Positions 37,369 to 53,093 of a stretch of DNA of 64,000 nucleotides are shown piece after piece. The position numbers and the translations under genes were made by a program. Location: assembly GCA_017417055.1 (NCBI GenBank), contig JAFPZX010000096.1, positions 1 to 64,000 of the forward strand, given 5' to 3'. Below the pieces are notes generated by a model. It searched no databases. It was not told the DNA's origin and was given only the letters and a program-made list of their open reading frames with translations. Position 1 is the stretch's first letter. Each line of letters opens with the position of its first letter. Origin of the DNA: Anaerolineaceae bacterium (lineage in GTDB: Bacteria > Chloroflexota > Anaerolineae > Anaerolineales > Anaerolineaceae).

Positions 37369-37408
37369 AAACGTCTGTTGATTTGTTGAAAATCAGCAGA
37401 CGTTTTTG
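37369..37408 (+). terminator. Rho-independent terminator
   Basis: AACGTCTG (37370-37377) pairs with CAGACGTT (37397-37404), the stem extended by a TGATTT/AAATCA inner section, followed by TTT. A GTGGGCAG-C-CTGCCCAC hairpin lies at 37434-37450. Confidence 0.8.
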
Positions 37409-37618: not shown

Positions 37619-39508
37619 ATGGAAATCAGTAAAAGTGTTCAGGAAGTATTGACACAGGCGCAGATGCTGAAGCTGAATACAAACAGCGGCACGTTATGTG
37701 TGGAGCATTTTTTATATGCTCTGCTGCTCATGGCAAAGTATCTGGATGAACCGATGAACAAAAAGGAATACCTTACTGAGGCAAAGAAGCTGCGGAAGAT
37801 GCTGGAAAAGCAGATCAACAGTATCGCCATGGCGGAACAGGAGCTGAGAGTAAAGGCATATCAGGACCCGGCTGCTTTCCATAATGATCCATCTGTACTC
37901 GGCAGGGCTGTCGAAATCGCCGGTGCGAAGGCTGTGAGTACCCTGGATTTGGCGAATGCAGTCCTGGAAAAATCAGAGCCCACGGTCAGCTGGCTCAACA
38001 GTCTGGATATCTCACCCGCTGCTGCGGAAGACGATGCCAGATATGGAACAAAAAAGCCGGCAAAACAAAAACCGCCTCAGCACAAGCCACTCCCCTCTCA
38101 AAACAGCGATACCCTGTTTTCCATCAGTGGAACTGATCAAGATCCCAATCAGACGATTGTTGAATCTGAGCTTAATCAGACGATTGCCGAATCTGAGCCT
38201 AATCAGACGATTGACGAACCGGAGCCGAACCTTGATGAATTACGGAAACTTCTTAATGAAGAACGGAAACGTTTTGAGAAAGAAAAAAAGCAGTTTGAAG
38301 CAGAACGGAAACAGTTTAGCGAAGAGAAAAAGCAATTTGAGGTAGAGCGGAAAATTCTTGAAGAAGAGCAGGAAGTATTCTTTGACAGGCAGGAGCGGCT
38401 AAACATTGACCGGGAACAACTTAAAAATGATAGGGATCGTTTTGAAAAAGATCGGAAAGCTCTGGATGAACGGGAGAACCATCTCGATGACTATCGCATT
38501 CATCTGGAACGGGAAAAAGCGAAACTGAACGAACTGCAGGCACAGCCTCAAAAACAGGCACCAAAAAAACAAAAAGATTTATGGACCTTTATCGGACCGT
38601 TTCAGTTTCGGGGTTCGGCTTTTTGGGGATTTCTGCAATATTTTTTGTTGGGTGCGGTGGTTTTCTGCGGTGCGCTCTTCGCGCTGGAGCATTTCACCCA
38701 TTATGTCACCAAACCGCCGACGGCCTGGTGGTCTTTCGGCATCAATGCTTTCATTGTTGTGAGTGTTTATTACCATCTGCGAGGCATTACTTATCTGATG
38801 GAGCGCAAGTGGCCTGCCTGGGCGCTGTTCACACGGCAGATATTCGATATCCTGCTGATCCTCTCTCTGATGTCGGTTTATCTCTTTGAATTCTGTGTAC
38901 CTGGTTATTTCCCGAAATGGCGGGAATATGTTATGGGGCGGTTCCTGACCTTCAAACCCAGTCCGCTGCCTTATGTGCCGCGCTGGCTGAAATATGTGGG
39001 TGGCGTGTTTTGTGTGCTGGTGTTTTCTGTTGGGTCGATCATCTATAACAGCTTGCACTACGGTCCGGAAGACGAGAAGAAAAAAATCAAATATGGGAGC
39101 AATGAAGGACCGGTCGGGAAAGTTATATTCCAGTCTGTTTCCGGAAATCTGGCATTTCCGGTGGCGCTGCTGTTTGCCATCTGGGCTTATGATAAACCAT
39201 TCAAACCCTGGCATATCAAGGTTTTCTGGTGCTATGGATTTTTGACTCTCTGGACAATGTTTTTCACCATTTTCAGCTGTTGGCACCAGGCGGTCCATGC
39301 AAAATGGTACCGCGGAAAGATGTTCAATATCGTCCGGTTTATATTCCGTCTGCATATTTCGCTTTTCATCCCGGAGCTTGTGCTCTTCCTGCACTGGCTG
39401 TTTGGCTGGTCCCCGATGCAGCTGTGGGTGAAGATCATTCTGTGCGTTTATACCGTGATCGCGGTCATCATGTCAGCTGTTGGCGCCTGGCTGCTTGTCA
39501 GAAAGTAG
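37619..39508 (+). CDS. Clp_N-like, coiled-coil, polytopic membrane protein (cluster gene 1)
   Basis: A 629-residue protein of unknown family. The N-terminus (about 1-140) resembles the Clp N-domain that docks substrates and adaptors (KSVQEVLTQAQMLKLNTNSG, CVEHFLYALLL). A linker carries three units of nine residues with NQTI at 177, 186 and 195, each centred on a Thr (179, 188, 197) beside acidic residues. A long charged coiled coil runs from about 205 to 320 (EERKRFEKEKKQFEAERKQF). Eight hydrophobic segments fill 340-629. It may be the membrane-bound receptor of the cluster, with its cytosolic Clp_N-like domain matching that of gene 5 and the Thr units as kinase sites; both points are inference. 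The ATG follows GGGAGGCGCATAT. The next gene begins 12 bases later. Confidence 0.8.
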   Translation: MEISKSVQEVLTQAQMLKLNTNSGTLCVEHFLYALLLMAKYLDEPMNKKEYLTEAKKLRKMLEKQINSIAMAEQELRVKAYQDPAAFHNDPSVLGRAVEIAGAKAVSTLDLANAVLEKSEPTVSWLNSLDISPAAAEDDARYGTKKPAKQKPPQHKPLPSQNSDTLFSISGTDQDPNQTIVESELNQTIAESEPNQTIDEPEPNLDELRKLLNEERKRFEKEKKQFEAERKQFSEEKKQFEVERKILEEEQEVFFDRQERLNIDREQLKNDRDRFEKDRKALDERENHLDDYRIHLEREKAKLNELQAQPQKQAPKKQKDLWTFIGPFQFRGSAFWGFLQYFLLGAVVFCGALFALEHFTHYVTKPPTAWWSFGINAFIVVSVYYHLRGITYLMERKWPAWALFTRQIFDILLILSLMSVYLFEFCVPGYFPKWREYVMGRFLTFKPSPLPYVPRWLKYVGGVFCVLVFSVGSIIYNSLHYGPEDEKKKIKYGSNEGPVGKVIFQSVSGNLAFPVALLFAIWAYDKPFKPWHIKVFWCYGFLTLWTMFFTIFSCWHQAVHAKWYRGKMFNIVRFIFRLHISLFIPELVLFLHWLFGWSPMQLWVKIILCVYTVIAVIMSAVGAWLLVRK

Positions 39509-39520
39509 GGAGGTTCGTTT

Positions 39521-41200
39521 ATGTCTTCAAAAGTGATTTTAACTATTACCAAAGGTGAAAATGAAGGAAAAACCTATGAGTTTTCGGAAGTCAGCCGGGC
39601 AGTGATCGGACGGCAGGAAGATTGTGCGATCGTTGTTCCGGAAAAAACAGTTTCCCGCTATCACTGCCTGCTGGAGATCACACCTCCGAAGGTTGTCCTG
39701 CAGGATTTCGGCTCGTTGAATGGCACATTCCTGAATGGAGAAAAGATCGGTCAGCGGGACCGTGACCAGTCTCTGGAAGAGGCTCAGAAAGAGGCCCATG
39801 ATTCTTTTGAGATGAAAGATGGCGATGTGTTGGGACTGGGGAGACAGTGTGAGATTTCTTTGAAAGTGGAAACAAGTGAGAACTGTGCGCGCTGCGGTGC
39901 GGAATTGCCGGTTTTGCCTCCGCATAGTAAAGGCCTGGTCTGGACGAATGATGAAGGTCAGCGCATTTGTGAGAAATGTTGGAAGGCTGTTCAGAAGGAA
40001 AAAGAGGAAGAGGAACGCAGGCGGAAAGAAGAAGAGAAAAAACGACTGGATGAGGAAAAAAGGCGGAAAGAAGAAGAGCTGAAACTTCAGCAGCAGGCGC
40101 AGAAAACGAAACAGAAAAAATGTAAGAACTGCGGAAAGCTGTTCACGCCTGCAGCTCCGGACAATGCCCTTTGTCCCAAATGCCTCGCGGAGGAAGCAGA
40201 GATATTGAATGCCGCGCTGGCGGGGATCATTTTGAAAAACAATCAACCGGCGCAAAAGCCGGAGAAGCCCAGCGGACCTTCAATCATTCCGGGATACGAC
40301 AATGTCAAAAAGCTCGGTGAAGGCGGCATGGGTACGGTCTGGAAAGTCCGGAACCGCAAAACCGGCAAAGACTTTGCGCTCAAAACCATCCTGCCGAAGG
40401 TAGGTATGGATGAAAACGCGCGGAAACTTTTTATGCGTGAGGCGGATATCTGCAAATGTCTGGATCATAAGAATGTGGTGAAAGGCTATGAAACCGGTGA
40501 TGCGAACGGAACGCTTTACATCCTCATGGACCTCTGTGAGGGCGGCAGTGTGGATGACCTGATCGAGCAGAAAGGCGGTAAGCTGAGCATTGAGCTGGCG
40601 ACCTGGATCATGCTGCAGGTGCTTTCCGGCCTGGATTATGTTCACAACATGGATATCGATGTGCTGGTGAAGGCAGGACTGTTCCGTGGTATGAAAGAGG
40701 TCAACACAATCGGGGTGGTTCATCGTGATTTCAAACCCGGCAACGTTTTTCTTTCCGATACAAGTGATCATCCGGTGGCAAAGGTCGCAGATTTTGGTCT
40801 GGCGAAGGCCTTCAATACCGCCGGAAAATCCCAGGTATCCAAAACCGGTTCCATTAAAGGGACTCCGGTCTTTATGCCGAAGCAGCAGGCGATGAACTGT
40901 AAATACGCCAAACCGGAAGTGGATGTCTGGGCAGCTGCGGCTTCTTTTTATTATATGCTTACCGGAAAATTTCCAAAAGATTTCTACAGTGGGAAAAACC
41001 CTTGGCAGGTTATTATTCTGGAAAAAGCGATCCCGATCCGCAAACGGAATTCAGCGATTCCGGAAAAAATGGCAGCGGTAATTGATAAAGCACTTGTGGA
41101 AGACCCCTCTATCGGATACAAATCCGCCGCAGCGCTGCGCAGGGATCTGGTTGCTGCGCTGCCTTCAAATGTGAGAGAGTATTGTAAAGGAATTTTGTGA
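39521..41200 (+). CDS. FHA domain Ser/Thr protein kinase with zinc ribbons (cluster gene 2)
   Basis: A 559-residue cytosolic kinase. The FHA domain (about 20-95) has the phosphothreonine-binding residues Gly-Arg, Ser-Arg-x-His and Asn-Gly-Thr (VIGRQEDCAI, VSRYHCLLEI, GSLNGTFLNG). Zinc ribbon one uses Cys122/125/150/153. A short charged coiled coil follows, then ribbon two with Cys201/204/218/221. The kinase domain (about 258-555) is complete: glycine loop LGEGGMGT at 265-272, Lys288, HRD at 401-403 and DFG at 424-426. An insert of about 20 residues precedes HRD, and TPVFMPKQQ replaces the usual T-P-x-Y-MAPE/SPE. The FHA domain probably reads phosphothreonine on partners, perhaps gene 1. It overlaps the phosphatase gene at its stop codon. 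Confidence 0.92.
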   Translation: MSSKVILTITKGENEGKTYEFSEVSRAVIGRQEDCAIVVPEKTVSRYHCLLEITPPKVVLQDFGSLNGTFLNGEKIGQRDRDQSLEEAQKEAHDSFEMKDGDVLGLGRQCEISLKVETSENCARCGAELPVLPPHSKGLVWTNDEGQRICEKCWKAVQKEKEEEERRRKEEEKKRLDEEKRRKEEELKLQQQAQKTKQKKCKNCGKLFTPAAPDNALCPKCLAEEAEILNAALAGIILKNNQPAQKPEKPSGPSIIPGYDNVKKLGEGGMGTVWKVRNRKTGKDFALKTILPKVGMDENARKLFMREADICKCLDHKNVVKGYETGDANGTLYILMDLCEGGSVDDLIEQKGGKLSIELATWIMLQVLSGLDYVHNMDIDVLVKAGLFRGMKEVNTIGVVHRDFKPGNVFLSDTSDHPVAKVADFGLAKAFNTAGKSQVSKTGSIKGTPVFMPKQQAMNCKYAKPEVDVWAAAASFYYMLTGKFPKDFYSGKNPWQVIILEKAIPIRKRNSAIPEKMAAVIDKALVEDPSIGYKSAAALRRDLVAALPSNVREYCKGIL

Positions 41201-41961
41201 TGAGCAAAGAGAAGTTTTCACATGTTTATACCTATGCGGGTTTGTGTGATATCGGATCGCTGCGTCAAACCAATCAGGATCGCATCATCCTGCATCCCGA
41301 ACAGGATTTCTTTGCTGTTTCTGATGGCATGGGCGGTTTACTGTATGGAGAAGATTCGGCAATTTACGTCAGTGAAACCATGCCGAAGCTGGTGGATATC
41401 AGCGCACGGAACTGCTCAAAAAATACATCAGCGGAGGACGCGGCGGAGATGCTGGCGTCTTCAGCCAGGATGCTGAGTGACGCACTGTATCAAAAGGGCA
41501 ATTCTCCGAAACGATTTGATTACGGTGCGACGCTGGCTGGTGTCTGGCTGTTTGCAGATGAGGCCATATATATCGGTCTGGGAGACAGCCGCGGTTATCT
41601 GCAGCGGGACGGCGAGCTGAAGCAGGTAAGTGAAGATATGAATATCGCCGGGCTGATGGTCCGCAGTGGATTGATGACTCGGGAAGAAGCGGCGGAGAGT
41701 CCCGCGAACTCCCGTTTGACAGCTTTTGTAGGCATGGAAGCGCCTGCCGAACCAATCACCTGGCGGGTCAGGGTTCAGCCCGGGGATGTTATTTTGCTGT
41801 GCAGCGACGGTCTCTACGGCATGGTGCCGGAACCGGAGATCACGGAGGTCCTGAAGTCAGATGGATCATTGGATGGTATCTGTCAAAAACTCATCGGCAG
41901 TGCTAATGCGCATGGCGGGCGGGACAACATCTCAGCGGTGGTGATTCGTATCAACAAGTAG
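41200..41961 (+). CDS. PP2C-type Ser/Thr protein phosphatase (cluster gene 3)
   Basis: A 253-residue PPM/PP2C phosphatase, Mn2+/Mg2+-dependent, probably reversing the two kinases of the cluster. Conserved motifs are RQTNQDR (near residue 21), FFAVSDGMGG with a metal-binding Asp (near 41), YIGLGDSRGYL, LLCSDGLYGM and GGRDNISAVVI with the last metal Asp. There is no membrane helix or sensor domain. The ATG overlaps the kinase stop (TGATG), so translation is coupled. An in-frame GTG one codon earlier is possible. Gene order kinase-phosphatase is common in bacterial Hanks-kinase operons. Confidence 0.95.
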   Translation: MSKEKFSHVYTYAGLCDIGSLRQTNQDRIILHPEQDFFAVSDGMGGLLYGEDSAIYVSETMPKLVDISARNCSKNTSAEDAAEMLASSARMLSDALYQKGNSPKRFDYGATLAGVWLFADEAIYIGLGDSRGYLQRDGELKQVSEDMNIAGLMVRSGLMTREEAAESPANSRLTAFVGMEAPAEPITWRVRVQPGDVILLCSDGLYGMVPEPEITEVLKSDGSLDGICQKLIGSANAHGGRDNISAVVIRINK

Positions 41962-41999
41962 CGGTTTACGGATGGATGAAAACTTGAAAAGAGAGAAAA

Positions 42000-44900
42000 A
42001 TGGCGATGACAGACGATAACACGCAGCTCAGCAGTTTTGGAAATTCAGGTGATGATCAGGATTTTTGGGCTCAGCTGCTGGCTGCTGCTCAAACAGAGGC
42101 GGCCCGGAGAATAAACCTCAGTGATGCGGTTGATAACTCAGACAATCTTACAGCGAACGGTCCACGGCAATTTGTCAGGGGAGAATTGCTGATGAATACC
42201 TACCGGATCGATTCAAACCAAATTGATGGCGGGATGGGTTCGGTTTGGAAGGTTCATCATATCGGATGGAATGTGGACCTGGCGATGAAGCGTCCACAGC
42301 CGCAGCTGTTTTCAGATGAGAGGTCGAAGGATAATTTTATCAAAGAATGCCAAACCTGGATCGATCTGGGACTGCATCCGAACATTGTTTCCTGTTATTA
42401 TGTCCGTGAAATCGAGGGCGTTCCGACCATTTTCTCAGAATGGATGGAGAACGGCAGTCTGGAAAACCGTATTCAGGACGGATCACTTTATGAAGGGGCC
42501 GAAGCTGATGTGAATGCGCGGCTGCTGGATATCGCCATTCAGTATGCACGGGGACTGCATTACGCTCATGAGAAAGGCCTGATTCATCAGGATGTGAAAC
42601 CGGACAATCTGCTGCTCACCGGGGACTGGAAAGCGAAAGCCGCGGATTTCGGGCTGGCGAAAGCTCGGGCGCAACTGACTGTTCTGGAAGGTGATGCGAC
42701 ACTGTATGATGATGCCGGTGCGACGCATATGGCACCATCCGGCGGCTATACCCCTGCTTACTGTTCAATGGAGCAAATGGATGGCAAATTGCTGACCCGT
42801 CGTACGGATATCTATTCCTGGGCAGTTTCCGTGATGGAAATGTACCTCGGCAGCCGTCCCTGGTCCAATGGGGTCGTAGCCGGCATGGGCTGCCAAAGCT
42901 ATTTCAGTGCTGTGGATGCAAAGGTCGTTATGCCGCTGCCGCTTCAGAAACTTCTTGCAAGATGTATGGCTGCGGATCCCGATGACCGTCCTCATGATTT
43001 TGCTGTGATTGAAAAAGAGCTCCTCAATATTTACAAGAATTTCACCGGAAAGACTTATCCTCGTCCGGAGACGAAAGCCGCGTCAGATACAGCGGATTCA
43101 TTCAATAACCGTGCTCTTTCTTATCTGGATATGGGACAGCCTGAAAAAGCCGAAGAATATTGGAATTTGGCACATAATAAAGAGCCGGATCATGCGGAAA
43201 CGATTTACAATCAAAGCCTTTATTTGTGGCGGAGAGGGAAGATCAATGGCACGGACTTGATTCGGCGCTGTGCTTCTCTGACTGCCGGTAAAGATAGCGG
43301 AAGTGAATGGCAGGAGAAGGTCCGGCAGATCTATGCTGAGCGAAAAAACTCTGAACCTCGTTCTTTCAATTGTCAAAGCAGGACAGTTAGCAATTTCGGA
43401 ATTAACTTGCATCACCCACAGGTTTGTTTAAGCTCTGATGGGAAGAAGATTTATACAGGTTTCGACAGTATCTCCTGTTATGATGCGGTAACACTGAAAG
43501 AAGTTTTCAACCGGCCGGATCTGGTCGGTGAAACGCTGGTGGATATGCTGAAGCTGTCTTCTGACGGCAAATATCTGCTTTATCACAAAATGGAATCTTA
43601 TCACCATCCGACCCTGCTTAAAGATGTGCTTGTTAATCCCGGAGAAGCAGAAACCTTGTTCATTGCTGACGCGAAAACGGGAAAGCATCTGCGTATGTTA
43701 ACTGCTTCCGGGAGTTATGGACATCAAAAACCTGTCACTGCATTTTGTATTCACCCGGACAGCACCTTTTGTTATACCTCAGGACCAGACAAGATCCTGA
43801 AATGGAACTTTATCTCCGGTGAGCTTATTGCAGAATATGAATTGAAAAAGTCCGCTCCGGGAACTAAAATGGGACGAAATGTTTTCAGTTATGGAACGGT
43901 TTGTTCGATCGATATCAGTCCTGACGGGAAGTTATTGTGTGCTGTTATTTTAGGCAGTTCCTCCAGTATGATTGCTGTATGGGATGAAGAAAGTTATCAT
44001 CTGCTTGATCTGAATGAAGCAGATCACAGAATATCAGATATCAGTTTTTCAGCGGATGGCAGTGTTATCTATACTTGCGGAGAGGATGGCTTTGGCGTAT
44101 GGGATCCGAAATCGTTGAACTGTGAGAAATACAAAACACTGGTGCCGCTTGAAAAAATGTGGGTGTGTCCGGATGGATCAACGATCCTGGTCTCAGATTC
44201 ACTGCATAATGTAAACCTGTGGAAGGCCGGAACCTGGGAATGTGAGCGTGTTTTCCATACATCTGAAGTCAGGATTGAAAGTCTTGATGCGTCATCCGAT
44301 CTTACCATGGTGGCGGCCTGTGACTGGGACAAGAATGTGATGGTCTGGGATGTCAATGCGGAGATTCCCCGTGCACAGTGGGAATTGAGCCGTATCAAGG
44401 ATTACGACGTGGCGATCAGTATGGAGCGGTCGGTGGAGCACTTGCGGAATGAGATAACAACTGCACTTGAACAGGGAGACATCAGTAAAAGCCTTGTGCT
44501 TTTGGAAGAAGCAGAAAAAAAATTTGATCCGCATGCCTTTTTCCCGCTGAGAAGAAAGATCATGGCGTATTGCTTCAGAAACGAACTGACAAATGTCTAT
44601 GAAATTTCTTCGTTTAATATTCTTGATGACTTCTTTGAGCTCCCTACCATGCTCAGGCACGGTTCAATCTGCCCGAATCCGCAGGAAAATACGGCTGCGG
44701 TCAGGTTTTCGCGGGAGAATGTCATCCAGATTCGGGATGATCTGGGTTCCCGGGTTAAAGATTTTCGTATGCCGGAAGACTTCGATGGTGCGAATATCCT
44801 TTCCAGCCTGGCTTATTCTCGTTCAGGAAAAAAACTTGCTGTCGGTGGATATGATTCTGTTCTGGTGCTGGATGCGCAGCAGGGGGATGTTCTCAGGGAG

Positions 44901-45695
44901 CTCCGGGGGAATGAAGAAGCTTTCTGTTTTTCCGGTCTGAGTTTCAGTCCGGATGAAAAACTGCTGGCGGCCGGAACCGGAGATGATCATACGCTTTGCC
45001 TGTGGAATGTTGACACCGGACATCTGGTTTGTGAGTGGAAGGAAGATATACTATGCTCCAAGCGGATCCGGTTCATGCCCTCCGGGGATCGGATGATCGT
45101 TTCGACGCCATCAAACCTTCTCCTTTATGATGTAAAAAAAGGAATGTTGATCAAAACCATTCCTGTTTATGAGGGCTGTCTCGATTTTGATTTGTCTCCG
45201 GATGGTAAGAATCTATATCTCTTCACGGAAGAGGGATTCATACAAATGGATACCGTTTCGTGGCGCACCGATTACAGCTTCCGGCCTCATGAGCGAAACA
45301 AGTTTTCTGCGTCGGATCAGTATCGGGTCAGCCCGGATGGAACGTTATTGGCAACAATCAATGTCGGAAATATTCAGCTTTGGTCACTTGAGGATCGGTC
45401 GCTGATCCGTGAAATTCATTTGTATGAGACGGTATATCAGCTTGAATTTTCACCGGACAGCAGTATGCTTTATGCAGTCTGCGGGAATGTGGTTCGTGTG
45501 TACGCCCTGTTGAGAGAATTGGAATTTTCCGGTTGGTCAGAAAATACTGCCCCGGTTGACACTGTCATCGACACATTCAAAGCTGCTATCGGGCAGCCTG
45601 ACTCGGAACAGGTGCATCTGCTCCTGTGTGAATTCCGAAATCGTGGTTTTGGCTTTATCAGACCGGAGGTTATCAAAGCAAAATTCAGAAAATAA
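42000..45695 (+). CDS. Ser/Thr kinase with two C-terminal WD40-like propellers (cluster gene 4)
   Basis: A 1231-residue cytosolic protein. After a Ser/Asn-rich leader the kinase domain (about 65-345) has a shortened glycine loop DGGMGSV (76-82), Lys97, HQD at 196-198 where most kinases have HRD, and DFG at 216-218. The missing HRD Arg means activation need not depend on activation-loop phosphorylation. Residues 360-440 look like TPR helices (NNRALSYLDMGQPEKAEEYW). Two sets of WD40-like blades follow, about 450-810 and 880-1195, separated by a helical stretch. Typical blades are ISPDGKLLCAVI and SPDEKLLAAGTGDDHTLCLW. There is no membrane helix. The propellers probably scaffold proteins of the cluster. 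It starts 38 bases after the phosphatase gene with a weak ribosome site (GAGAG). Confidence 0.9.
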   Translation: MAMTDDNTQLSSFGNSGDDQDFWAQLLAAAQTEAARRINLSDAVDNSDNLTANGPRQFVRGELLMNTYRIDSNQIDGGMGSVWKVHHIGWNVDLAMKRPQPQLFSDERSKDNFIKECQTWIDLGLHPNIVSCYYVREIEGVPTIFSEWMENGSLENRIQDGSLYEGAEADVNARLLDIAIQYARGLHYAHEKGLIHQDVKPDNLLLTGDWKAKAADFGLAKARAQLTVLEGDATLYDDAGATHMAPSGGYTPAYCSMEQMDGKLLTRRTDIYSWAVSVMEMYLGSRPWSNGVVAGMGCQSYFSAVDAKVVMPLPLQKLLARCMAADPDDRPHDFAVIEKELLNIYKNFTGKTYPRPETKAASDTADSFNNRALSYLDMGQPEKAEEYWNLAHNKEPDHAETIYNQSLYLWRRGKINGTDLIRRCASLTAGKDSGSEWQEKVRQIYAERKNSEPRSFNCQSRTVSNFGINLHHPQVCLSSDGKKIYTGFDSISCYDAVTLKEVFNRPDLVGETLVDMLKLSSDGKYLLYHKMESYHHPTLLKDVLVNPGEAETLFIADAKTGKHLRMLTASGSYGHQKPVTAFCIHPDSTFCYTSGPDKILKWNFISGELIAEYELKKSAPGTKMGRNVFSYGTVCSIDISPDGKLLCAVILGSSSSMIAVWDEESYHLLDLNEADHRISDISFSADGSVIYTCGEDGFGVWDPKSLNCEKYKTLVPLEKMWVCPDGSTILVSDSLHNVNLWKAGTWECERVFHTSEVRIESLDASSDLTMVAACDWDKNVMVWDVNAEIPRAQWELSRIKDYDVAISMERSVEHLRNEITTALEQGDISKSLVLLEEAEKKFDPHAFFPLRRKIMAYCFRNELTNVYEISSFNILDDFFELPTMLRHGSICPNPQENTAAVRFSRENVIQIRDDLGSRVKDFRMPEDFDGANILSSLAYSRSGKKLAVGGYDSVLVLDAQQGDVLRELRGNEEAFCFSGLSFSPDEKLLAAGTGDDHTLCLWNVDTGHLVCEWKEDILCSKRIRFMPSGDRMIVSTPSNLLLYDVKKGMLIKTIPVYEGCLDFDLSPDGKNLYLFTEEGFIQMDTVSWRTDYSFRPHERNKFSASDQYRVSPDGTLLATINVGNIQLWSLEDRSLIREIHLYETVYQLEFSPDSSMLYAVCGNVVRVYALLRELEFSGWSENTAPVDTVIDTFKAAIGQPDSEQVHLLLCEFRNRGFGFIRPEVIKAKFRK

Positions 45696-45863
45696 TCAGC
45701 TGCTTATTAATGCATATAAAACGATGATTGGATTATCTTATTCCGGAAGGCTCGTTTCGGGAGAAAAGAAAACGTTTGAGAAAGATGAATGAAGGGAAAG
45801 CACGTAAGTCGTTTGAGGCATGCCGGAAGGGGAATGATCGAAAAATAAAAAGGAAGCGGGTGA

Positions 45864-48800
45864 ATGGATAGTAATAATTTGTCTTTATCAATGAAATATG
45901 TGGCGCTGCGGGCCAAGGCAGAAGCCGGTAACATGCGGAAATTCGAGTTCGGGGTTGAATATATGTTCCTCGGACTGCTTAAGTTAGCGGAGATCAGGTC
46001 GGAAGATGGGTTCAGGGAGAAGATACAGGAAGTGGATAACGACATCGCGGAAGTCAAGGCGATGTTCGTCAAGCATGGAGTTGATACCAGCAAAGCCCGC
46101 CCTGAACTGCGGCATGTGCTGAAACATGGCGGCAGCAGCGACCCGGACAAACTGGAAGCTTACCTTGATGATTCGCTGGAGATCGCGCGGAAAAACAAGC
46201 GGACTGAAGCGCACGCACAAGATTTGCTGACAGCCATCATCAAAAAACCGACAGATACGATCCTGCAGGTGTGTAATTTCAAATCCGCTGAAAATAAAAA
46301 TGTGAAACCGAATGAGGCAGCGGACGCTCCGGTAGATGAGATGTCGCTGGCGTTTTTGCCCGAGCTGACCAATCGGGTCCGTAAGCTGCGGGCGGAGCTG
46401 CTGAATGTGGTGCAGGGACAGGATCACGTGGTGCATGCCTTTGCGGAAGGAATTTTTGCTGCCGAGGTGCTTGCCGCCAGTGATATTGACCGCAAGCGTC
46501 CCAAGGCGATCTTCGTTTTTGCCGGCCCTCCCGGGGTGGGCAAGACCTTCCTTTCCGAGCAGGCTGCCCAGGCAATCAATATGCCATTCAAGCGTTTCGA
46601 TATGTCCTCTTTTGCTGACCGTGATTCCCAAACAGAACTCATCGGCTGGGAAAAGAGCTATCGCGGAGCGAAAGAAGGTGCGCTGACCGGGTTTGTAGCG
46701 GAAAATCCCTCTTGCATGCTGCTGTTTGACGAAATCGAAAAGGCGCATCTGGATGTGATCCAGATCTTTTTACAGATCCTGGATGCCGGACGGCTGAGCG
46801 ACCGCTATACCGGCGATACGGTTTCTTTCAAAGATACCATCATTATCTTTACGACGAACGCCTGTAAATCACTGTATGAGGGCGATTCCCGTCAGAACGC
46901 TGCTGGTGTTCCCCGTCAGACCATTCTGAACGCGCTGGAGACGGAAAAAGACCCGCGCACCGGTGTCCCGTTTTTTCCTGCCGCAATCACCAGCCGTCTG
47001 GGTACGGGGTGGCCGCTGCTTTTCAATCATCTGAAGGCACATGACCTGGAAAAAGTAGCCGGACGGGAACTGGAACGTTTCTGTGCTTTGTTTGAGAAAC
47101 AATACGGCATTCGGGTTTCCTTTGATGAAATGGTCCCGACTGCGCTGATGTTTCGGGAAGGTGCCGCGGATGCGCGGACAGTACGCGCGCAAACCGAGCT
47201 GTTTTTCAAAAACGAGATTTACAAACTCTGCAGACTGTGGGATCAGGATCACATCCCTTCCGCCCTGAAAAAGCTGAATGGAATCACGTTTATGGCTGAA
47301 ACCGAATCAACAGAGGCCGAGATCCGATCCCTGTTTTATCCGCAGGAAAAGGCGGAGGTCCTGATTTACGGTGACGAAGATTTTGCTGAGCATTGTCGGG
47401 AAAACCTGCCGGACTTTACTTTTTACGGTACGCAGAATGTCGATGAAGCGTTGGCGCTTGCCGGTGAAAAAGATATTCAGCTGGTTCTGCTGGACGTGAC
47501 GGAGAAAAGCGTTAGCCCGGAATTATGGCTGGCCACCATCATGGGCGAATTGAACAATGCCGATCCGTTTTCAACGAATGTGGGCTTCAATTACTCTCCC
47601 ATGGCCGCGAAATCGCTGAAGGATGGAAACCGGCTGCTGCGCATGCTGACGGAACGGCTGCCGGAGATTCCGGTGTATCTGCTGGAAACACCCTCCTTTG
47701 ACCTGGACGAGGAACTGACCATGAACTTTGTGCGGGCAGGGGCACGGGGGAAGATCACCATGCCTGATGAGGATTTTACAGTGTTTGAGGAAACGCTGGA
47801 GGATATCTGCGGAAAGCTTTATCTGCAGCATTCCGCGGCCCGCATCGCAGGAGAACATAAGATTCTTTTCTTTGAAACAGCACCTGCGCTTTCCAAAGAT
47901 CAAACACAGGTTGTGATCCGTCTGCGGGATTTTATGCTCAAGCGGGCTGCAGAAGCGGATGATTCCGGAGCGGTGCTGGATGATGTGGAAAAACCGAACA
48001 TCCATTTTTCCGACGTGATCGGGGCGTCAGATGCCAAGCAGGAGCTGAAATTCTTTGTCGAATACCTGAAAAATCCGAAAAAATTCTGTGCCCAAGGCAT
48101 CAAGCCCCCAAAGGGTGTTCTGCTCTATGGACCTCCGGGAACCGGGAAAACCATGCTGGCGAAGGCATTGGCAGGAGAAACGGATGTGGCGTTCCTGCCG
48201 GCAGCTGCCAGTTCCTTTGTAAATATTTATATAGGATCCGGTCCGAGAGCTGTGAGAGATTTGTTTAAACGGGCGCGGCGCTATGCCCCATCCATCATTT
48301 TTATCGACGAAATCGACACAATTGGGCGAAAGAGGACTTCGGGTGTGGGTACGCATGCTGAGGAGACAACGCTGAACGCGCTGCTGACGGAGATGGATGG
48401 CTTTGCTGTGGACCCGCGCAAACCGGTTTTTGTAATGGCAGCTACGAATTTTGATGTGGAAGAGGGCAAAGGCGGCATGGGTGTTATTGATCCTGCGCTT
48501 GCCAGACGTTTTGACCGGCAGATCCTGGTGGACCTGCCCAATGAAGAGGAACGGGAACAGCTGCTGAGAGCTTTACTTAAAAAGCATCCCGGAAACAGCG
48601 TGAGCGAAGAAATGATTCAACGTACCGCACAGCGTTCCACAGGTATGAGTCCTGCCGCTTTGACCGGAGTGATCGACCAGGCGAACCGTATGGCAGTCAA
48701 AGACGGAAAAGCAATGGATGACGCGATTCTCGATGAGGCTTATGAGCTCGTTCGTCATGGCGCGAAAAAGGATTGGGGGTATGATTATCTGGAACGGGTC

Positions 48801-49304
48801 GCCCGGCATGAGAGCGGTCATGCTTTTATGTGCTTTCTGAATGGGAATACGCCGGCTTACCTGACAATCGTTGCACGGGGAGATCATGGCGGATACATGG
48901 AACATTCCGCAAAGGAGATGGCGCCGCTTTCTACCAAAGAGGAACTTCTCGGCCGTATCCGTGTCAGCCTTGGCGGACGGGCTGCGGAGATTGTTTATTA
49001 CGGGAAACAGGCCGGGATTTCCACCGGTCCTTCCGGTGATCTGGAACAGGCTGCTCGGCTGGCGACGGCCATGCTGTGTGCTTACGGCATGGATGAGAAT
49101 TTCGGAATGGCACCTATGGATATGAATGACGCACTGCGGGACCCGGGTGTCCGGGAACGGGTCAATGAAATGCTAAGGAAGGAGATGAATGCCTCGATTG
49201 ACATTATCAAATCCAATAAGCACCGCATTGACCGTCTGGTGAAGGAATTGATGAAAAAGAACAAACTCACCGGTTCGGAGATAGAGGAGCTTCTTCAAGA
49301 ATAA
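45864..49304 (+). CDS. Clp_N - ClpB-type AAA+ - receiver-like - FtsH AAA+/M41 protease fusion (cluster gene 5)
   Basis: An 1146-residue fusion I have not seen described. Residues 1-150 resemble a Clp N-domain (LSMKYVALRAKAEAGNMRKF, KFEFGVEYMFLGLL). A ClpA/B D2-type AAA+ domain follows: Walker A GPPGVGKT 221-228, pore-like SYRG replacing GYVG, Walker B LLFDEIE 286-292, then ILDAGRLSD. A receiver-like fold spans about 498-655 (VLIYGDEDF, Asp544 in VLLDVT). The FtsH half has Walker A GPPGTGKT 756-763, Walker B FIDEID with Asp815, zinc motif HESGH 982-986 and the third ligand candidate Asp1059 (GPSGDLEQA). No membrane helix exists, unlike FtsH. All motifs look intact, so ATP-driven unfolding and proteolysis in the cytosol is predicted. 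It ends the cluster. The ATG lies after AAGGAAGCGGGTGA. Confidence 0.9.
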   Translation: MDSNNLSLSMKYVALRAKAEAGNMRKFEFGVEYMFLGLLKLAEIRSEDGFREKIQEVDNDIAEVKAMFVKHGVDTSKARPELRHVLKHGGSSDPDKLEAYLDDSLEIARKNKRTEAHAQDLLTAIIKKPTDTILQVCNFKSAENKNVKPNEAADAPVDEMSLAFLPELTNRVRKLRAELLNVVQGQDHVVHAFAEGIFAAEVLAASDIDRKRPKAIFVFAGPPGVGKTFLSEQAAQAINMPFKRFDMSSFADRDSQTELIGWEKSYRGAKEGALTGFVAENPSCMLLFDEIEKAHLDVIQIFLQILDAGRLSDRYTGDTVSFKDTIIIFTTNACKSLYEGDSRQNAAGVPRQTILNALETEKDPRTGVPFFPAAITSRLGTGWPLLFNHLKAHDLEKVAGRELERFCALFEKQYGIRVSFDEMVPTALMFREGAADARTVRAQTELFFKNEIYKLCRLWDQDHIPSALKKLNGITFMAETESTEAEIRSLFYPQEKAEVLIYGDEDFAEHCRENLPDFTFYGTQNVDEALALAGEKDIQLVLLDVTEKSVSPELWLATIMGELNNADPFSTNVGFNYSPMAAKSLKDGNRLLRMLTERLPEIPVYLLETPSFDLDEELTMNFVRAGARGKITMPDEDFTVFEETLEDICGKLYLQHSAARIAGEHKILFFETAPALSKDQTQVVIRLRDFMLKRAAEADDSGAVLDDVEKPNIHFSDVIGASDAKQELKFFVEYLKNPKKFCAQGIKPPKGVLLYGPPGTGKTMLAKALAGETDVAFLPAAASSFVNIYIGSGPRAVRDLFKRARRYAPSIIFIDEIDTIGRKRTSGVGTHAEETTLNALLTEMDGFAVDPRKPVFVMAATNFDVEEGKGGMGVIDPALARRFDRQILVDLPNEEEREQLLRALLKKHPGNSVSEEMIQRTAQRSTGMSPAALTGVIDQANRMAVKDGKAMDDAILDEAYELVRHGAKKDWGYDYLERVARHESGHAFMCFLNGNTPAYLTIVARGDHGGYMEHSAKEMAPLSTKEELLGRIRVSLGGRAAEIVYYGKQAGISTGPSGDLEQAARLATAMLCAYGMDENFGMAPMDMNDALRDPGVRERVNEMLRKEMNASIDIIKSNKHRIDRLVKELMKKNKLTGSEIEELLQE

Positions 49305-49311
49305 TCAATTT

Positions 49312-49340
49312 AGGGGACTGTCTTTTGTGGGACAGTCCCT
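49312..49340. repeat. Family I palindrome at the cluster end
   Basis: AGGGGACTGTC-TTTTGTG-GGACAGTCCCT, seven bases after the stop of the AAA+/protease gene and eight before the 3' end of the convergent lipoprotein gene; probably the terminator for both. Confidence 0.75.
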
Positions 49341-49348
49341 GAAATTTT

Positions 49349-50092
49349 TTACGAAAGACTCGAGTGCTGAAGGTCCAGCCAGAAAGCAGGCCGTACGACG
49401 TCCACGGTATCCACGACGCCGTATCCCGGATAAGTGATATATCCATCGTTGAGAACCATTGCAGCGGTTTGTCCGATCCGACCCGGGGAACGCAGCCACC
49501 ACCAGGAGTTGCCGTTTTCAGCAACATATGCTCCGTTGGCTTTCGCATAGGCAGTCGCCTCGCACTGCCGGGCTGTGTCATTGGTGAAGTATTTGTCTGC
49601 CTCATCGATGCTCAGCAGAAAGATTCTGTCTTTTGTTGAAAATCCGCCTCTTGCCCGGGAACAGCTGTTGCTCGGGTTGCTGTTTTTCACTTCCATAATG
49701 CCTGTTTTTTCCTCAGGACTGAAGGCACTGTGGTAGAACTCTTCATTGAGCCATTTCCGCAGTGTGCTTCGGAACCAGGTTACGTTGATGTAGGTCTTGT
49801 TGTATTGCTTCGCGTCAAGGGCATATCGGCTGATCAGCAGCGCGCGGTTGTTTTCGATTGCCAGAACCTGCCATTCGATGGGTTCGGTTCCGTTGTTCAG
49901 ATCGTTGTCCTGCTCGTAGCTTCCGAAAGTGAAGCTGTCTCCCACTTTCAACCCGGAGTTGTTGAACGAAGCTTTATTTTCCTGTGAAGGTGATTGTGTC
50001 GTTTTCCCGGTGCAGCCGCAGATCACCAGTGTTGTCAGCAGCAGCCACAGGAAAATATATTTGCGTTTGTTATTATGTGTCTTTATAATCAC
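49349..50092 (-). CDS. Lipoprotein with DUF6273 domain
   Basis: A 247-residue surface lipoprotein. A basic N-terminus and hydrophobic core lead to the lipobox LVICGC with Cys27. The mature part carries a DUF6273-type domain: FTFGSYEQDNDLNNGTEPIE, ALLISRYALDAKQYN, STLRKWLNEEFYHSAF and the closing WWWLRSPG...VRPAFWLDL. Such domains occur in secreted proteins of gut anaerobes; the function is unknown and a carbohydrate-binding or FGE-like fold is only a guess. The start is GTG (50090-50092) preceded by AAAGGGAAAAATCT. It is antisense to and convergent with the kinase/AAA cluster, so it is probably unrelated to it. Confidence 0.8.
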   Translation of the reverse strand: MIIKTHNNKRKYIFLWLLLTTLVICGCTGKTTQSPSQENKASFNNSGLKVGDSFTFGSYEQDNDLNNGTEPIEWQVLAIENNRALLISRYALDAKQYNKTYINVTWFRSTLRKWLNEEFYHSAFSPEEKTGIMEVKNSNPSNSCSRARGGFSTKDRIFLLSIDEADKYFTNDTARQCEATAYAKANGAYVAENGNSWWWLRSPGRIGQTAAMVLNDGYITYPGYGVVDTVDVVRPAFWLDLQHSSLS

Positions 50093-50297
50093 AGATTTTT
50101 CCCTTTCTGTATTGAGCCGGTATGGATTTGATTCTTCATAAATACTCTTCGTTTCTTTTTGATATTCATTATAAACGAAAAAAGGCTTTTCACAGACTTC
50201 AATCAGGCTTTATAATTTAGTAGATAGTAACTGTTCAGAGCATTCCCGATGTTCCTGCTGAACAGCTTTCAAAAAATTGAGAAAGGAGCAAGAAAAA

Positions 50298-51449
50298 ATG
50301 AAATGTGAATTAATGCACCGACAAATATCCGCTGCTGAAATCGAAATTGACAGCGACAGCGGATTTATCACGAAAATATACAGCGTTTCTGCTCCTGAAC
50401 ATCTTCCGCTTGCTGTAACTGATAAAGGCGGCAAATTGGACCGTTCCGCTCTGAACCGTTGGTGGCTGGAAAGATCAATTCCTGCCACGCGCTCGGGATT
50501 GCGGGACGCGTTGAATCTTATGGACATCGATGATTCAAAACAATTGCTTGCCCGGTGTTACGGGCTCAGCCTTTCCGATCAGTATTGGGTCAAACCCGAA
50601 AGCAGCGGATTGTCCTGGAAAACGATCAATTTTTTTGAAAATCCGTTTTCGGAAGATATCGGTGATGCTTTGTTCGGGAAAAAGAAGCATGATGTTTTCA
50701 GTTACAATTCGCCGGACAGTACCTCGGATGGAAATCTGAAAAAGCGCTGGAAGATCATCAACGGAAAACGTTTCCTGCTGAAAGGCGGAACTGATCCGTT
50801 TCGGCAGCAGCCTTTTAATGAGGTTGTTGCATCTGAAATTATGGACCGTCTGGAGATTCCTCATGTTCCTTATACTGTGACGCAAATCGATGGTCAGCCT
50901 TACAGTCTCTGTGAGGATTTCATTGCTCCGGAAACAGAGCTGGTTCCGGCTGCCCGGATCATTCAGGTGAAAAAGAAACGGAACGAAGTTTCCGCATGGC
51001 AGCATTTTGTGGATTGCTGTGAAATGCTGGGGATTCCAAATGTCGTATCTTTTTTGGATCAAATGGTTATGCTGGATTTTATTATCGCCAATGAAGATCG
51101 TCATTATAATAATTTCGGCGCTGTCCGGAATGCGATAACCCTTGAATGGATCGGGATGGCTCCAATTTTTGACTGCGGCTCGTCGCTGGGTTACAATAAA
51201 GTCGAAAGAAGAATCGCGGCCGGGACTGATATTATCTGCAAACCGTTTAAACAAAGTCATGAAGAACAATTGGAGCTTGTTACGGATTTCAACCGGCTCA
51301 ATTTTGACCGGCTGTCGGATGTTCGCGAAATGATTTCCGGCATATTGTCCACTGAGCTCGCCGCGGAAACGATCGATGAAAAACGGATCAAAACGATCGT
51401 GGATGCTGTAGAAAAACGTATCGAGATTGTAAAGATGAGGCAGCGATGA
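50298..51449 (+). CDS. HipA-like Ser/Thr kinase domain protein
   Basis: A 383-residue protein with a HipA-type kinase fold. The catalytic loop is ANEDRHYNNFG, with Asp267 and Asn272 as base and metal ligand, and the DFG-like metal segment is PIFDCGSSLG. Upstream lies the ATP-binding Lys candidate in RFLLKGGTDPFRQQPFNE. HipA proteins phosphorylate glutamyl-tRNA synthetase or other targets and cause dormancy; relatives without a HipB partner have unknown targets. No HipB-type antitoxin gene adjoins it. Instead the last four bases (ATGA) overlap a zinc macrodomain gene and then a class M sirtuin, so it may belong to that module. I placed the start at 50298, with AAAGGAGCAAGAAAA before it. Confidence 0.82.
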   Translation: MKCELMHRQISAAEIEIDSDSGFITKIYSVSAPEHLPLAVTDKGGKLDRSALNRWWLERSIPATRSGLRDALNLMDIDDSKQLLARCYGLSLSDQYWVKPESSGLSWKTINFFENPFSEDIGDALFGKKKHDVFSYNSPDSTSDGNLKKRWKIINGKRFLLKGGTDPFRQQPFNEVVASEIMDRLEIPHVPYTVTQIDGQPYSLCEDFIAPETELVPAARIIQVKKKRNEVSAWQHFVDCCEMLGIPNVVSFLDQMVMLDFIIANEDRHYNNFGAVRNAITLEWIGMAPIFDCGSSLGYNKVERRIAAGTDIICKPFKQSHEEQLELVTDFNRLNFDRLSDVREMISGILSTELAAETIDEKRIKTIVDAVEKRIEIVKMRQR

Positions 51450-52219
51450 ATCAGGATGAAAAAAGAATCTATCTGATCCGGGAGCTTCTGGCGGAAAACC
51501 CGGAACTGCGGAATGTGGAAATTCCGGAGGACAGGACGGAACAATGGTATTTGCTGCGCAGCCTGTTCAACATCCGCATGCCCGGCCCTATTTCTGAAGA
51601 AATTTTGAAAATACAGGACGAATTCCTGCAGGAAGAGATCCGGAAAAAGGGAATCACGGATATTTCCGAGATCCCGGAAATTGAGCCGGAACTTTGCCTG
51701 TGGCAGGGCGATATCACGACGCTGCGCTGTGACGCGATCGTCAATGCCGCCAATTCCGGGATGACCGGCTGCTATCAGCCATGCCATAATTGCATTGATA
51801 ACTGCATCCATACTTACGCAGGCATTCAGCTGCGGAACACCTGTGCTGCGATTATGGAGGCTCAGGGATATGAGGAGCCGACCGGTCAGGCCAAAGTCAC
51901 AGACGCCTTTAATTTACCTGCACGGTATGTGCTGCATACAGTCGGTCCGATCGTGCAGGGACAGCTGACCGGGCTTCATGAGGAACAGCTTGCTTCCTGT
52001 TACCGTTCCTGCCTGGAGCAGGCGGAGCTGTTTGATTGCAGCAGTCTTGCCTTCTGCTGCATTTCAACGGGCGTATTCGGTTTCCCAAACCAGCGGGCAG
52101 CAGAAATCGCGGTGAAAACAGTGCAAGCGTATAAAGCGGAAACAAAAAATCACATCAAGGTGGTGTTCAATGTCTTCAAGGATATCGATTACGGGATCTA
52201 CCGGGACTTACTCGGATAA
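51446..52219 (+). CDS. Zinc-containing macrodomain ADP-ribosylhydrolase
   Basis: A 257-residue protein. The N-terminal 75 residues are a helical extension (IYLIRELLAENPEL, QWYLLRSLFNIRMPGPISEE) typical of the Zn-Macro class, and the macrodomain follows. The ADP-ribose loop is AIVNAANSGMTGC (Asn100, Asn103) and the Cys/His-rich loop YQPCHNCIDNCIH (Cys109, Cys113, His114, Cys116) carries the zinc site. The second loop ISTGVFGFPNQRAA is also intact. Zn-Macro enzymes remove ADP-ribose added by class M sirtuins. The partner sirtuin gene overlaps its end by 50 bases. In known operons a GcvH-like protein is the target, but none is encoded here. Confidence 0.9.
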   Translation: MNQDEKRIYLIRELLAENPELRNVEIPEDRTEQWYLLRSLFNIRMPGPISEEILKIQDEFLQEEIRKKGITDISEIPEIEPELCLWQGDITTLRCDAIVNAANSGMTGCYQPCHNCIDNCIHTYAGIQLRNTCAAIMEAQGYEEPTGQAKVTDAFNLPARYVLHTVGPIVQGQLTGLHEEQLASCYRSCLEQAELFDCSSLAFCCISTGVFGFPNQRAAEIAVKTVQAYKAETKNHIKVVFNVFKDIDYGIYRDLLG

Positions 52220-53093
52220 TCTCGCGAGGTTAAAAATGGCTCTTGATGAAGCCGACGCTGTTGTGATCGGTGCGGGAGCGGGACTTTCCACTTCTGCTGG
52301 GTTTGTCTACTGCGGAGCACGGTTTGAGACGTATTTTTCTGACTTTGAACAAAAATACGGGTTCAAAGATATGTATTCCGGTGGGTTTTATCCCTATTCC
52401 GCACCGGAGGCGTTCTGGGGCTTCTGGTGCCGGAATATCTGGGTGAATCGGTATATGAAGGCTCCGAAACCTGTTTATGAGACCCTGCTGAAGCTTGTTT
52501 CGGACAAGGATTATTTTGTGCTCACAACCAATGTGGACCACTGCTTTCAGAAGGCCGGTTTTGATAAGAAGCGGTTGTTTTATACGCAGGGAGATTATGG
52601 CTTGTTTCAGTGCTCTGTGCCATGTCATCAGAAAACTTATGACAATCAGGATATGGTCCGGAGAATGATCGAATCCGAGGGGTGGCTGATTGGCCGGGTC
52701 AACGAAATAACGCCCTCTGAGGGAAAGCAGCCTCTGATGATGATTCCGACAGATCTGCTTCCTGTCTGCCCGGTCTGCGGAAAGCCGCTGACGCTGAACC
52801 TGCGGTCTGATGACACATTTGTTGAAGATGAGGGCTGGCATAAAGCATCGGAGCGGTACCGGAATTTTCTGGAAACGCATGACGGAAGGATCCTTTTCCT
52901 GGAACTTGGGGTCGGGTTCAATACGCCGGTCATCATCAAATATCCCTTCTGGAACATGACGATGGAGAATCCGGACGCTTTTTATGCCTGTCTGAACTAT
53001 GGTGAGGCGTTCTGTCCGGAACAGATCAGCGGGCGTTCGATTTGCATCGATGGGGATATTGGAAAAACGCTGAACGATTTGGAAAAGTGTTGA
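52170..53093 (+). CDS. Class M sirtuin, ADP-ribosyltransferase (SirTM)
   Basis: A 307-residue protein of the class M sirtuins, which transfer ADP-ribose from NAD+ to proteins rather than deacylating them. The NAD motif GAGAGLSTSAG is at residues 34-44 and TTNVDHCFQKAG at 119-130. The catalytic His of ordinary sirtuins is replaced by Gln140 (YTQGDYGLF), the class M hallmark. Cys154-type residues in the Zn region and CPVCGKPL near 205 are present. I chose ATG 52170 because AAGGTGG precedes it and the extra helix suits the family; ATG 52236 (GCGAGG upstream) would be shorter. It overlaps the macrodomain gene by 50 bases, giving tight coupling. Confidence 0.88.
   Translation: MSSRISITGSTGTYSDNLARLKMALDEADAVVIGAGAGLSTSAGFVYCGARFETYFSDFEQKYGFKDMYSGGFYPYSAPEAFWGFWCRNIWVNRYMKAPKPVYETLLKLVSDKDYFVLTTNVDHCFQKAGFDKKRLFYTQGDYGLFQCSVPCHQKTYDNQDMVRRMIESEGWLIGRVNEITPSEGKQPLMMIPTDLLPVCPVCGKPLTLNLRSDDTFVEDEGWHKASERYRNFLETHDGRILFLELGVGFNTPVIIKYPFWNMTMENPDAFYACLNYGEAFCPEQISGRSICIDGDIGKTLNDLEKC

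Follow-up and report, generated by a model that had tools for sequence, protein, structure and literature searches.

A five-gene kinase, phosphatase and Clp-FtsH protease cluster from an Anaerolineaceae bacterium, a possible phosphorylation-gated proteolysis system

Several described bacterial systems come close to the locus considered here, a cluster of five genes, g1 to g5, at positions 37619-49304 of the window. The window is the whole stretch analyzed, 64,000 nucleotides of contig JAFPZX010000096.1 from an Anaerolineaceae bacterium. KKP, a prophage antiphage module consisting of PfkA, PfkB and PfpC (PMC11341870), resembles the cluster in having two Ser/Thr kinases, one FHA domain and a PP2C phosphatase, and in the balance of kinase and phosphatase. 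In the type VI secretion system (T6SS), PpkA, PppA, Fha and ClpV bring together a kinase, a PP2C-type phosphatase and an FHA domain that reads phosphothreonine on a membrane protein (PMC3953482). The MoxR-vWA-FtsH ternary systems share with it FtsH-type AAA+ domains, beta-propellers and probably diversification as conflict systems; they also have rare ClpN repeats, a resemblance with modest support here (PMC7159879). The tLST, or ClpK (ClpG)-FtsH stress island, encodes Clp-type and FtsH ATPases together (PMC8290217). At the level of a single protein, FtsH (TIGR01241) joins an AAA domain to an M41 peptidase, as g5 does.

We suggest that the operon encodes a phosphorylation-gated proteolysis system, a reading whose chances we judge to be evenly balanced. 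Its role, going by the comparisons below, is probably in conflict and possibly in stress. If true, it would give bacteria a path by which Ser/Thr phosphorylation leads to the targeted destruction of proteins.

All five open reading frames (ORFs) lie on the + strand, as follows: g1 (37619-39508), g2 (39521-41200), g3 (41197-41961), g4 (42000-45695) and g5 (45864-49304). The gaps g1/g2, g3/g4 and g4/g5 measure 12, 38 and 168 nucleotides, and g2 and g3 overlap by 4. Five same-strand genes with short gaps had been described in an earlier note made from the letters of this DNA, and that layout holds. Terminator-like hairpins flank the genes on the + strand. One, at 37369-37405, lies 5′ of the operon just past a PNPOx-like gene and has a 16-pair stem followed by a T-rich tail; the other, at 49313-49340, lies directly 3′ of g5 and has a 12-pair stem and a T run. 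By consensus scan, the region has 21 terminator-like sites, with 13.7 expected. These two have the longest stems of the 21, and no + strand site falls in the gaps between the five genes. The genes look like one operon, presumably read as a single transcript. The source genome (G000) is a 4.4-Mb draft, 85% complete, in which the window is contig C192. Against a sister genome of the same genus, G013, all five genes (g4 judged by its kinase part) show a purifying coding pattern, with third-position identity of 48–57% versus 68–91% at positions 1 and 2.

The domain content agrees with the earlier note, which had named an FHA kinase, a PP2C phosphatase, a second kinase with propellers and a Clp-FtsH fusion. 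Pfam matches were listed for 13 of 13 families in g2, the best 25 of 41 in g4 and the best 25 of 46 in g5. In g2, an N-terminal FHA domain (5.6e-16) is joined to a Pkinase domain (6.9e-44), and the key residues of both are invariant in 3/3 homologues. g2 also has zinc-ribbon-like Cys pairs; the zinc-ribbon matches are below the Pfam cut-off, and the second set is kept in 3/3 homologues. g3 matches PP2C_2 (1.6e-13) and an NCBIfam Stp1-type model (1.8e-48, yet below the family cut-off), and all five PP2C motifs sought are present in 3/3. g4 begins with a kinase and a TPR-like part (residues ~60–420, TPR below the cut-off), followed by a variable sensor region in which WD40 stretches occur at two places. 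g5 carries a Clp-type AAA_2 domain, an FtsH-type AAA domain and Peptidase_M41 in a single fused ORF. For the catalytic motifs we relied on residues taken to be diagnostic. The kinase motifs are intact in 7/7 g4-type modules; the Walker A/B motifs of all AAA domains, HExxH and the distal Asp ligand are present in 6/6 g5 proteins.

The gene order is conserved in two phyla, which answers the gene-order check that the earlier note had proposed. G013 has all five genes in order beside the same left-hand neighbours, with tblastn identities of 58% (g1), 73% (g2), 73% (g3), 68% (g4 kinase part) and 83% (g5). The left flanking genes are up to 95% identical, and the right flank is different. In Lachnospiraceae AC2029 (Bacillota), g2, g3, the g4 kinase and g5 follow in the same order and strand. 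There, g2, g5 and the g4 kinase part are 53–63% identical to those of the window (g5, 63%) and g3 is 52% identical. Three extra ORFs stand amid these four genes, one of 403 residues with no Pfam match, one of 223 residues, and a DUF285/BspA-type repeat protein. In 28 genomes of our own choice, strong matches to a g4-kinase profile numbered one in the window genome, five modules in G013 and one in AC2029; the other 25, including three with a kinase-free g5 (see below), had no strong match. A self-contained kinase/phosphatase/FHA/unfoldase-protease system, as the earlier note inferred, is supported insofar as the order recurs in two phyla and g4-type kinases occur only in 3/28 genomes, all of them cluster-bearing.

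Comparison of the g4-type proteins indicates that their sensor ends have been exchanged or multiplied on a constant kinase engine. Across six modules (15 pairs), the kinase and TPR parts are 58–75% identical versus 22–33% for the sensor ends, and BLAST finds sensor similarity in 5/15 pairs and none in 10/15. This matrix is without an unlinked, orphan kinase of G013, which was compared separately with the window g4 alone. The segment 43194-45839 (+ strand), comprising most of the g4 sensor region and the g4–g5 gap, has no blastn match in the syntenic G013 cluster, where both sides match. Thus, the g4 slot of G013 holds a different sensor. The nearest relative of the window's g4 sensor is the unlinked G013 kinase (kinase 74%, sensor 29% identical), so the WD40 plan itself persists. 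Between g4 and g5, G013 has a 5,000-codon open frame (L093:108-15107, minus strand) that contains three further g4-type kinase modules, WD40 stretches and two FtsZ-like segments. The two segments are 33% identical to each other. One matches a solved FtsZ with E 2.8e-7, their Pfam scores (E 1.9e-4 and 0.025) are below the cut-off, and their nucleotide-binding motif is, by eye, degenerate. Our guess is that they may act as decoys. The frame also has a repeated helical-looking motif, DPFAALMAQMEQEAKDRL, its C-terminus included, of which the window g4 has a version.

g5 appears to represent a protease family without a name among the Pfam, NCBIfam and PADLOC matches listed. It differs from FtsH in its extra Clp-type AAA domain, its receiver-like insert, its separate place in the tree and the lack of a membrane segment, hydropathy finding no hydrophobic or membrane segment in g5. 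Its score against FtsH TIGR01241 is 357.7 bits, under the curated cut-off of 600. A tree built on the FtsH part places the g5 proteins, six in all, in a single group (100/100) separate from 13 ordinary FtsH proteins. These 13 remained of 21 loci picked, 8 having been lost since no ORF with the motif was recovered. Seven of the 13 come from AC2029, G823 and G548, and the ordinary FtsH proteins of the window genome and G013 were left out. Branching among the six is partly resolved, and the G1154 branch is long. An assignment of g5 to IetA was rejected, as the IetA matches are confined to the FtsH-type AAA domain.

Two parts of g5 lie outside its motors and peptidase. The first is the N-terminus, where, as in g1, Pfam finds no Clp_N. 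With hhalign, the target was one profile built from 12 Clp-family N-termini of fetched genomes, so that E-values are single-target values without library correction. g5 scores 78% (E 1.8e-5, 105 columns) and g1 70% (E 4e-5, 33 columns only), whereas two g5 relatives that lack the kinases score 0.7% with their N-termini and a PP2C negative control 0.1%. There is modest support, therefore, for a Clp_N-like N-terminus in g5 and for Clp_N-like N-terminal helices in g1; the earlier note's Clp_N label for g1 fails in Pfam and survives in this qualified form. The second part is an insert of about 200 residues between the two motors (residues ~483–673; 47310-47882, + strand), with weak receiver-like profile matches. 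In the window g5, Pfam Response_reg matches at E 0.16 and, in the relative from G823, OKR_DC_1_N matches at E 0.0018, both below the cut-off; the insert profile matches response regulators in the PDB at E 0.011–0.014. Asp 544 is kept in 6/6 g5 relatives and a Lys in 3/6.

Linker profiles detected three distant g5 relatives, in 2/299 genomes of the AC2029 family and 1/391 of its class, AC2029 itself being excluded from both counts. The relatives, from G823, G1154 and G548, all have the Clp-type AAA, linker, FtsH AAA and M41. In G823 and G1154, the g5 relative is directly preceded by a pair of small genes (L088:9071-9987 and L092:1374-2315) with YbjN matches. Both genes of G823 are over the Pfam cut-off, and one of the two in G1154 matches below it. 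These small YbjN-like genes possibly encode substrate adaptors; the TY-Chap/YbjN chaperones (PMC9503650) provide the literature for comparison. That the Clp-FtsH family is found both with kinases and with YbjN-like neighbours suggests the same machine under different controllers. The G548 protein (L089:7435-13721) has its FtsH motor doubled and also bears a viroplasmin (RNase-H1 N-terminal) domain. Its gene is flanked by two genes with a viroplasmin domain, one of them with RNase H.

g1 consists of about 330 residues, including a coiled-coil-like stretch, followed by six hydrophobic segments; by hydropathy, it is a membrane protein. Its linker contains three NQTIxE repeats (residues 179–200; 38153-38218, + strand), which are TxxE motifs resembling FHA ligands. 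The one homologue found, about 58–59% identical, is in G013: g1 was found in 2/151 genomes searched, the window genome and G013, and in 2/14 same-genus genomes examined. The variable sensor of the system looks to be g4 rather than g1.

Such FHA-ligand-like TxxD/E motifs are over-represented in the g1 linker and in those of some sensor kinases, by the following counts. In g1 and the g4-type proteins, ten linker-like stretches together contain 11 occurrences of T[VIL]x[DE], with 0.93 expected, and 0/5000 shuffles reached 11. Any acid at +3 of a Thr occurs 20 times versus 7.1 expected. At +1, +2, +4, +5 and +6 the counts are 9, 4, 2, 5 and 4 versus 7.3, 7.2, 7.2, 6.4 and 6.5, and at +3 in fourteen other protein parts the count is 84 versus 75.2. 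One of the ten stretches precedes a propeller, not a kinase. The form pTxxD is the ligand of Rad53 FHA1 (PMC3146460).

A pathway can be proposed as follows. The g4-type kinases would be the sensors, each with a fixed kinase and TPR engine and an exchangeable end, made of WD40 propellers here and of something different in other members. On sensing a cue, the g4-type kinase would phosphorylate TxxD/E threonines in the g1 linker, and some g4-type members might do the same in their N-terminal tails. These phosphothreonines would be bound by g2 through its FHA domain, which would thereby bring in the second kinase to relay or amplify the signal, and the PP2C phosphatase g3 would reset the phosphorylation state. 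The first steps have a precedent in the Agrobacterium T6SS, in which Fha recognizes the membrane protein TssL once it has been phosphorylated in a PpkA-dependent manner (PMC3953482). g5 is placed at the output because of its position and co-occurrence. As a soluble two-motor AAA+ protein, it would unfold substrates with its Clp-type and FtsH-type motors and pass them to the M41 chamber for cleavage; the phospho-complex or substrate would probably dock at its Clp_N-like and receiver-like parts. The earlier note had proposed that threonine phosphorylation is coupled to proteolysis. The enrichment in TxxD/E gives this a lead and makes it plausible; the coupling itself stays a proposal.

Most likely the system serves in conflict with a phage or competitor and perhaps acts by breaking down proteins of the host or the invader; this reading is based on the turnover of the sensors, the patchy distribution and the occurrence in two phyla. 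Changing recognition ends on a fixed kinase engine are a pattern known from immune receptors. A bolder form can be stated, tentatively and as doubtful: a programmable immune-like system in which swappable sensor kinases, some with FtsZ-like host decoys, would place phosphothreonine tags, read by an FHA kinase, at a membrane hub, with the two-motor protease as defence output and horizontal spread between Chloroflexota and Bacillota.

The patchiness is documented by several searches. A scan of genome contigs gave three loci, G013, AC2029 and L082; it detects close relatives only, so further clusters may exist. L082 (Oscillospiraceae) retains a g5-like gene only as two short remnants, with no match to g1–g4 in the surrounding 15.8 kb. 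Full-length g5 was found in 2/61 genomes searched, the window genome and G013, and the g5 linker in 1/301 genomes of the phylum, the window's own, G013 evidently not having been sampled. A search with residues 1–700 of g5 was too unspecific, matching 400/400 genomes, apparently via ordinary ClpB/ClpC. No single place covering 80% of g5 was found in any of the 3762 plasmid or 220 phage records with a match, and the G823 g5 likewise gave 0/4005 plasmids. The neighbouring PNPOx gene was matched in 7/14 same-genus genomes. No empty insertion site came from G005, which has the closest PNPOx orthologue outside G013; its neighbourhood is unrelated and lacks the cluster.

A number of points weigh against phosphorylation-gated proteolysis in conflict. 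Only three cluster-bearing genomes were found, two of them from one genus. The three distant g5 relatives have no g1–g4 match in the surrounding 15–20 kb, which indicates that phospho-gating is not intrinsic to the protease. No g1 match is present in 22 kb of the AC2029 locus, so that g1 is not universal, and its role as membrane receptor, proposed by the earlier note and favoured by its membrane segments and FHA-ligand-like linker, is supported in part. Compared directly, the N-termini of g1 and g5 barely match (2.8%, hhalign), and the receiver-like nature of the g5 insert is weakly suggested. As to the motifs, the pattern and the ten stretches (low-complexity by eye) were chosen after the motif had been noticed and tested afterwards, tandem repeats inflate the count, and 4/10 stretches, including the tails of the window g4 and the G013 g4, are without it. 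Finally, five pattern-based scans of viral contigs (g5, g5 linker, g2, g4 kinase and g1) gave no close relative: the matches were a weak one to AAA and two, of 28–29% identity, to the kinase only. A scan of 12 flanking genes of the window named no mobile-element or phage gene. The case for a role in conflict is therefore built on the variability of the sensors and the patchy distribution.

A quality-control or stress function is unlikely in our estimate, the least so of the other explanations. Kinase-free g5 relatives follow small genes (2/4 with YbjN over the cut-off and one below), and in 9/10 plasmid rows listed clpK and ftsH are named close together, jointly covering 63% of g5 (tblastn). 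However, no small heat-shock, thioredoxin or DegP-type gene is among the 12 flanking genes scanned, and fast-changing sensor ends would, we infer, be unusual in such a system. A KKP-like toxin-antitoxin, in which the two kinases would arrest growth, the PP2C would be the antitoxin and g5 an accessory, we consider distinctly improbable. KKP, like this cluster, combines a PP2C with two kinases of which one bears an FHA domain (PMC11341870), but here the order is FHA-kinase, PP2C, kinase, the FHA is N-terminal and g4 is far larger; no cold-shock domain is among the Pfam matches listed, and in the available text of PMC11341870 a protease is not named as a part of KKP. Housekeeping signalling for the envelope or cell division, with g1 as membrane hub, would suit the membrane location of g1 and the FtsZ-like segments of the G013 sensor; it is very improbable, as only 2/14 same-genus genomes examined have g1 and the other four genes are found in another phylum. 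A chance neighbourhood of unrelated genes is scarcely credible: g5 relatives without kinases, a kinase version in 3 genomes only and three extra ORFs in AC2029 speak for it, against the same order in G013 and AC2029, the identities between the two phyla of 53–63% (g2, g5 and g4 kinase part) and 52% (g3), and the exclusive co-occurrence of g4-type kinases with the cluster (3/28 genomes). The earlier note held that g5 homologues without kinases would mean such a neighbourhood; these homologues do exist, in 3 genomes, yet that conclusion is unwarranted, given that four genes stand in the same order in different phyla.

Other features of the surroundings are as follows. A DUF6273 gene (49349-50092, minus strand) faces the operon. 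Further 3′, at 50277-53093, are mutually overlapping genes, HipA_C-like (below the cut-off), Macro-domain and without Pfam match; this group has no match in 2.9 kb to the right of the G013 cluster. The window genome has a second FHA- and kinase-rich cluster on contig C110 (L045:8526-19318), with two kinases (one fused to DUF6273), an FHA-DUF805, an FHA-trypsin and another FHA protein. On contig C138, around 39247, an FHA domain lies within an 8,668-codon open frame.

How, then, does the phosphorylation-gated protease operon compare with the systems described at the outset? KKP has the order PP2C-kinase-kinase, a C-terminal FHA, a cold-shock domain and genes of 900–1300 bp (PMC11341870); the present operon further includes an AAA+ protease, WD40 stretches and a protein of the membrane. 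Membership in KKP was rejected on the order of FHA-kinase, PP2C and kinase, and on the absence of a cold-shock domain among the Pfam matches listed for g2 and g4. ClpV is not known to be fused to a protease, whereas the AAA+ of this operon is. The earlier note had seen no T6SS structural genes nearby; the sheath family TssC/VipB (PF05943) is absent genome-wide in 3/3 cluster-bearing genomes, two of which are incomplete drafts (G000 85%, G013 89% complete), with a positive E. coli control. T6SS membership was rejected accordingly, and the similar parts list that the note pointed out (kinase, phosphatase, FHA and a Clp-type protein) stands as an analogy. The ternary systems have two AAA domains of the FtsH type, of which the first is inactive (PMC7159879); in g5, the first is a Clp-type AAA_2 and the Walker motifs are intact in both. 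No MoxR or vWA match is among the Pfam matches listed for the five genes or in 10 flanking genes, a bpMoxR match (E 0.0019) that falls within the first AAA domain of the g5 relative in G823 being below the cut-off. With Walker A and B motifs in every AAA domain of 6/6 g5 proteins, that membership was rejected as well. The tLST has separate clpG/K and ftsH genes with a small heat-shock protein gene (PMC8290217), versus one polypeptide plus kinases here; given the single fused ORF and no such heat-shock gene among 12 flanking genes scanned, the locus was not assigned to it. PADLOC/NCBIfam matches to PD-T4-6 and MAD6 were likewise set aside, being restricted to the kinase part and far below the NCBIfam cut-off. 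The earlier note knew of no described system with this layout, and none was found in the open-licence PMC literature, available mostly at the level of titles and abstracts. A sceptic could take the system for a variant of phosphorylation-based conflict modules. We call it new because the tested features of KKP, T6SS, the ternary systems and the tLST do not fit it, and because none of the Pfam, NCBIfam and PADLOC matches listed names a family with the architecture of g5.

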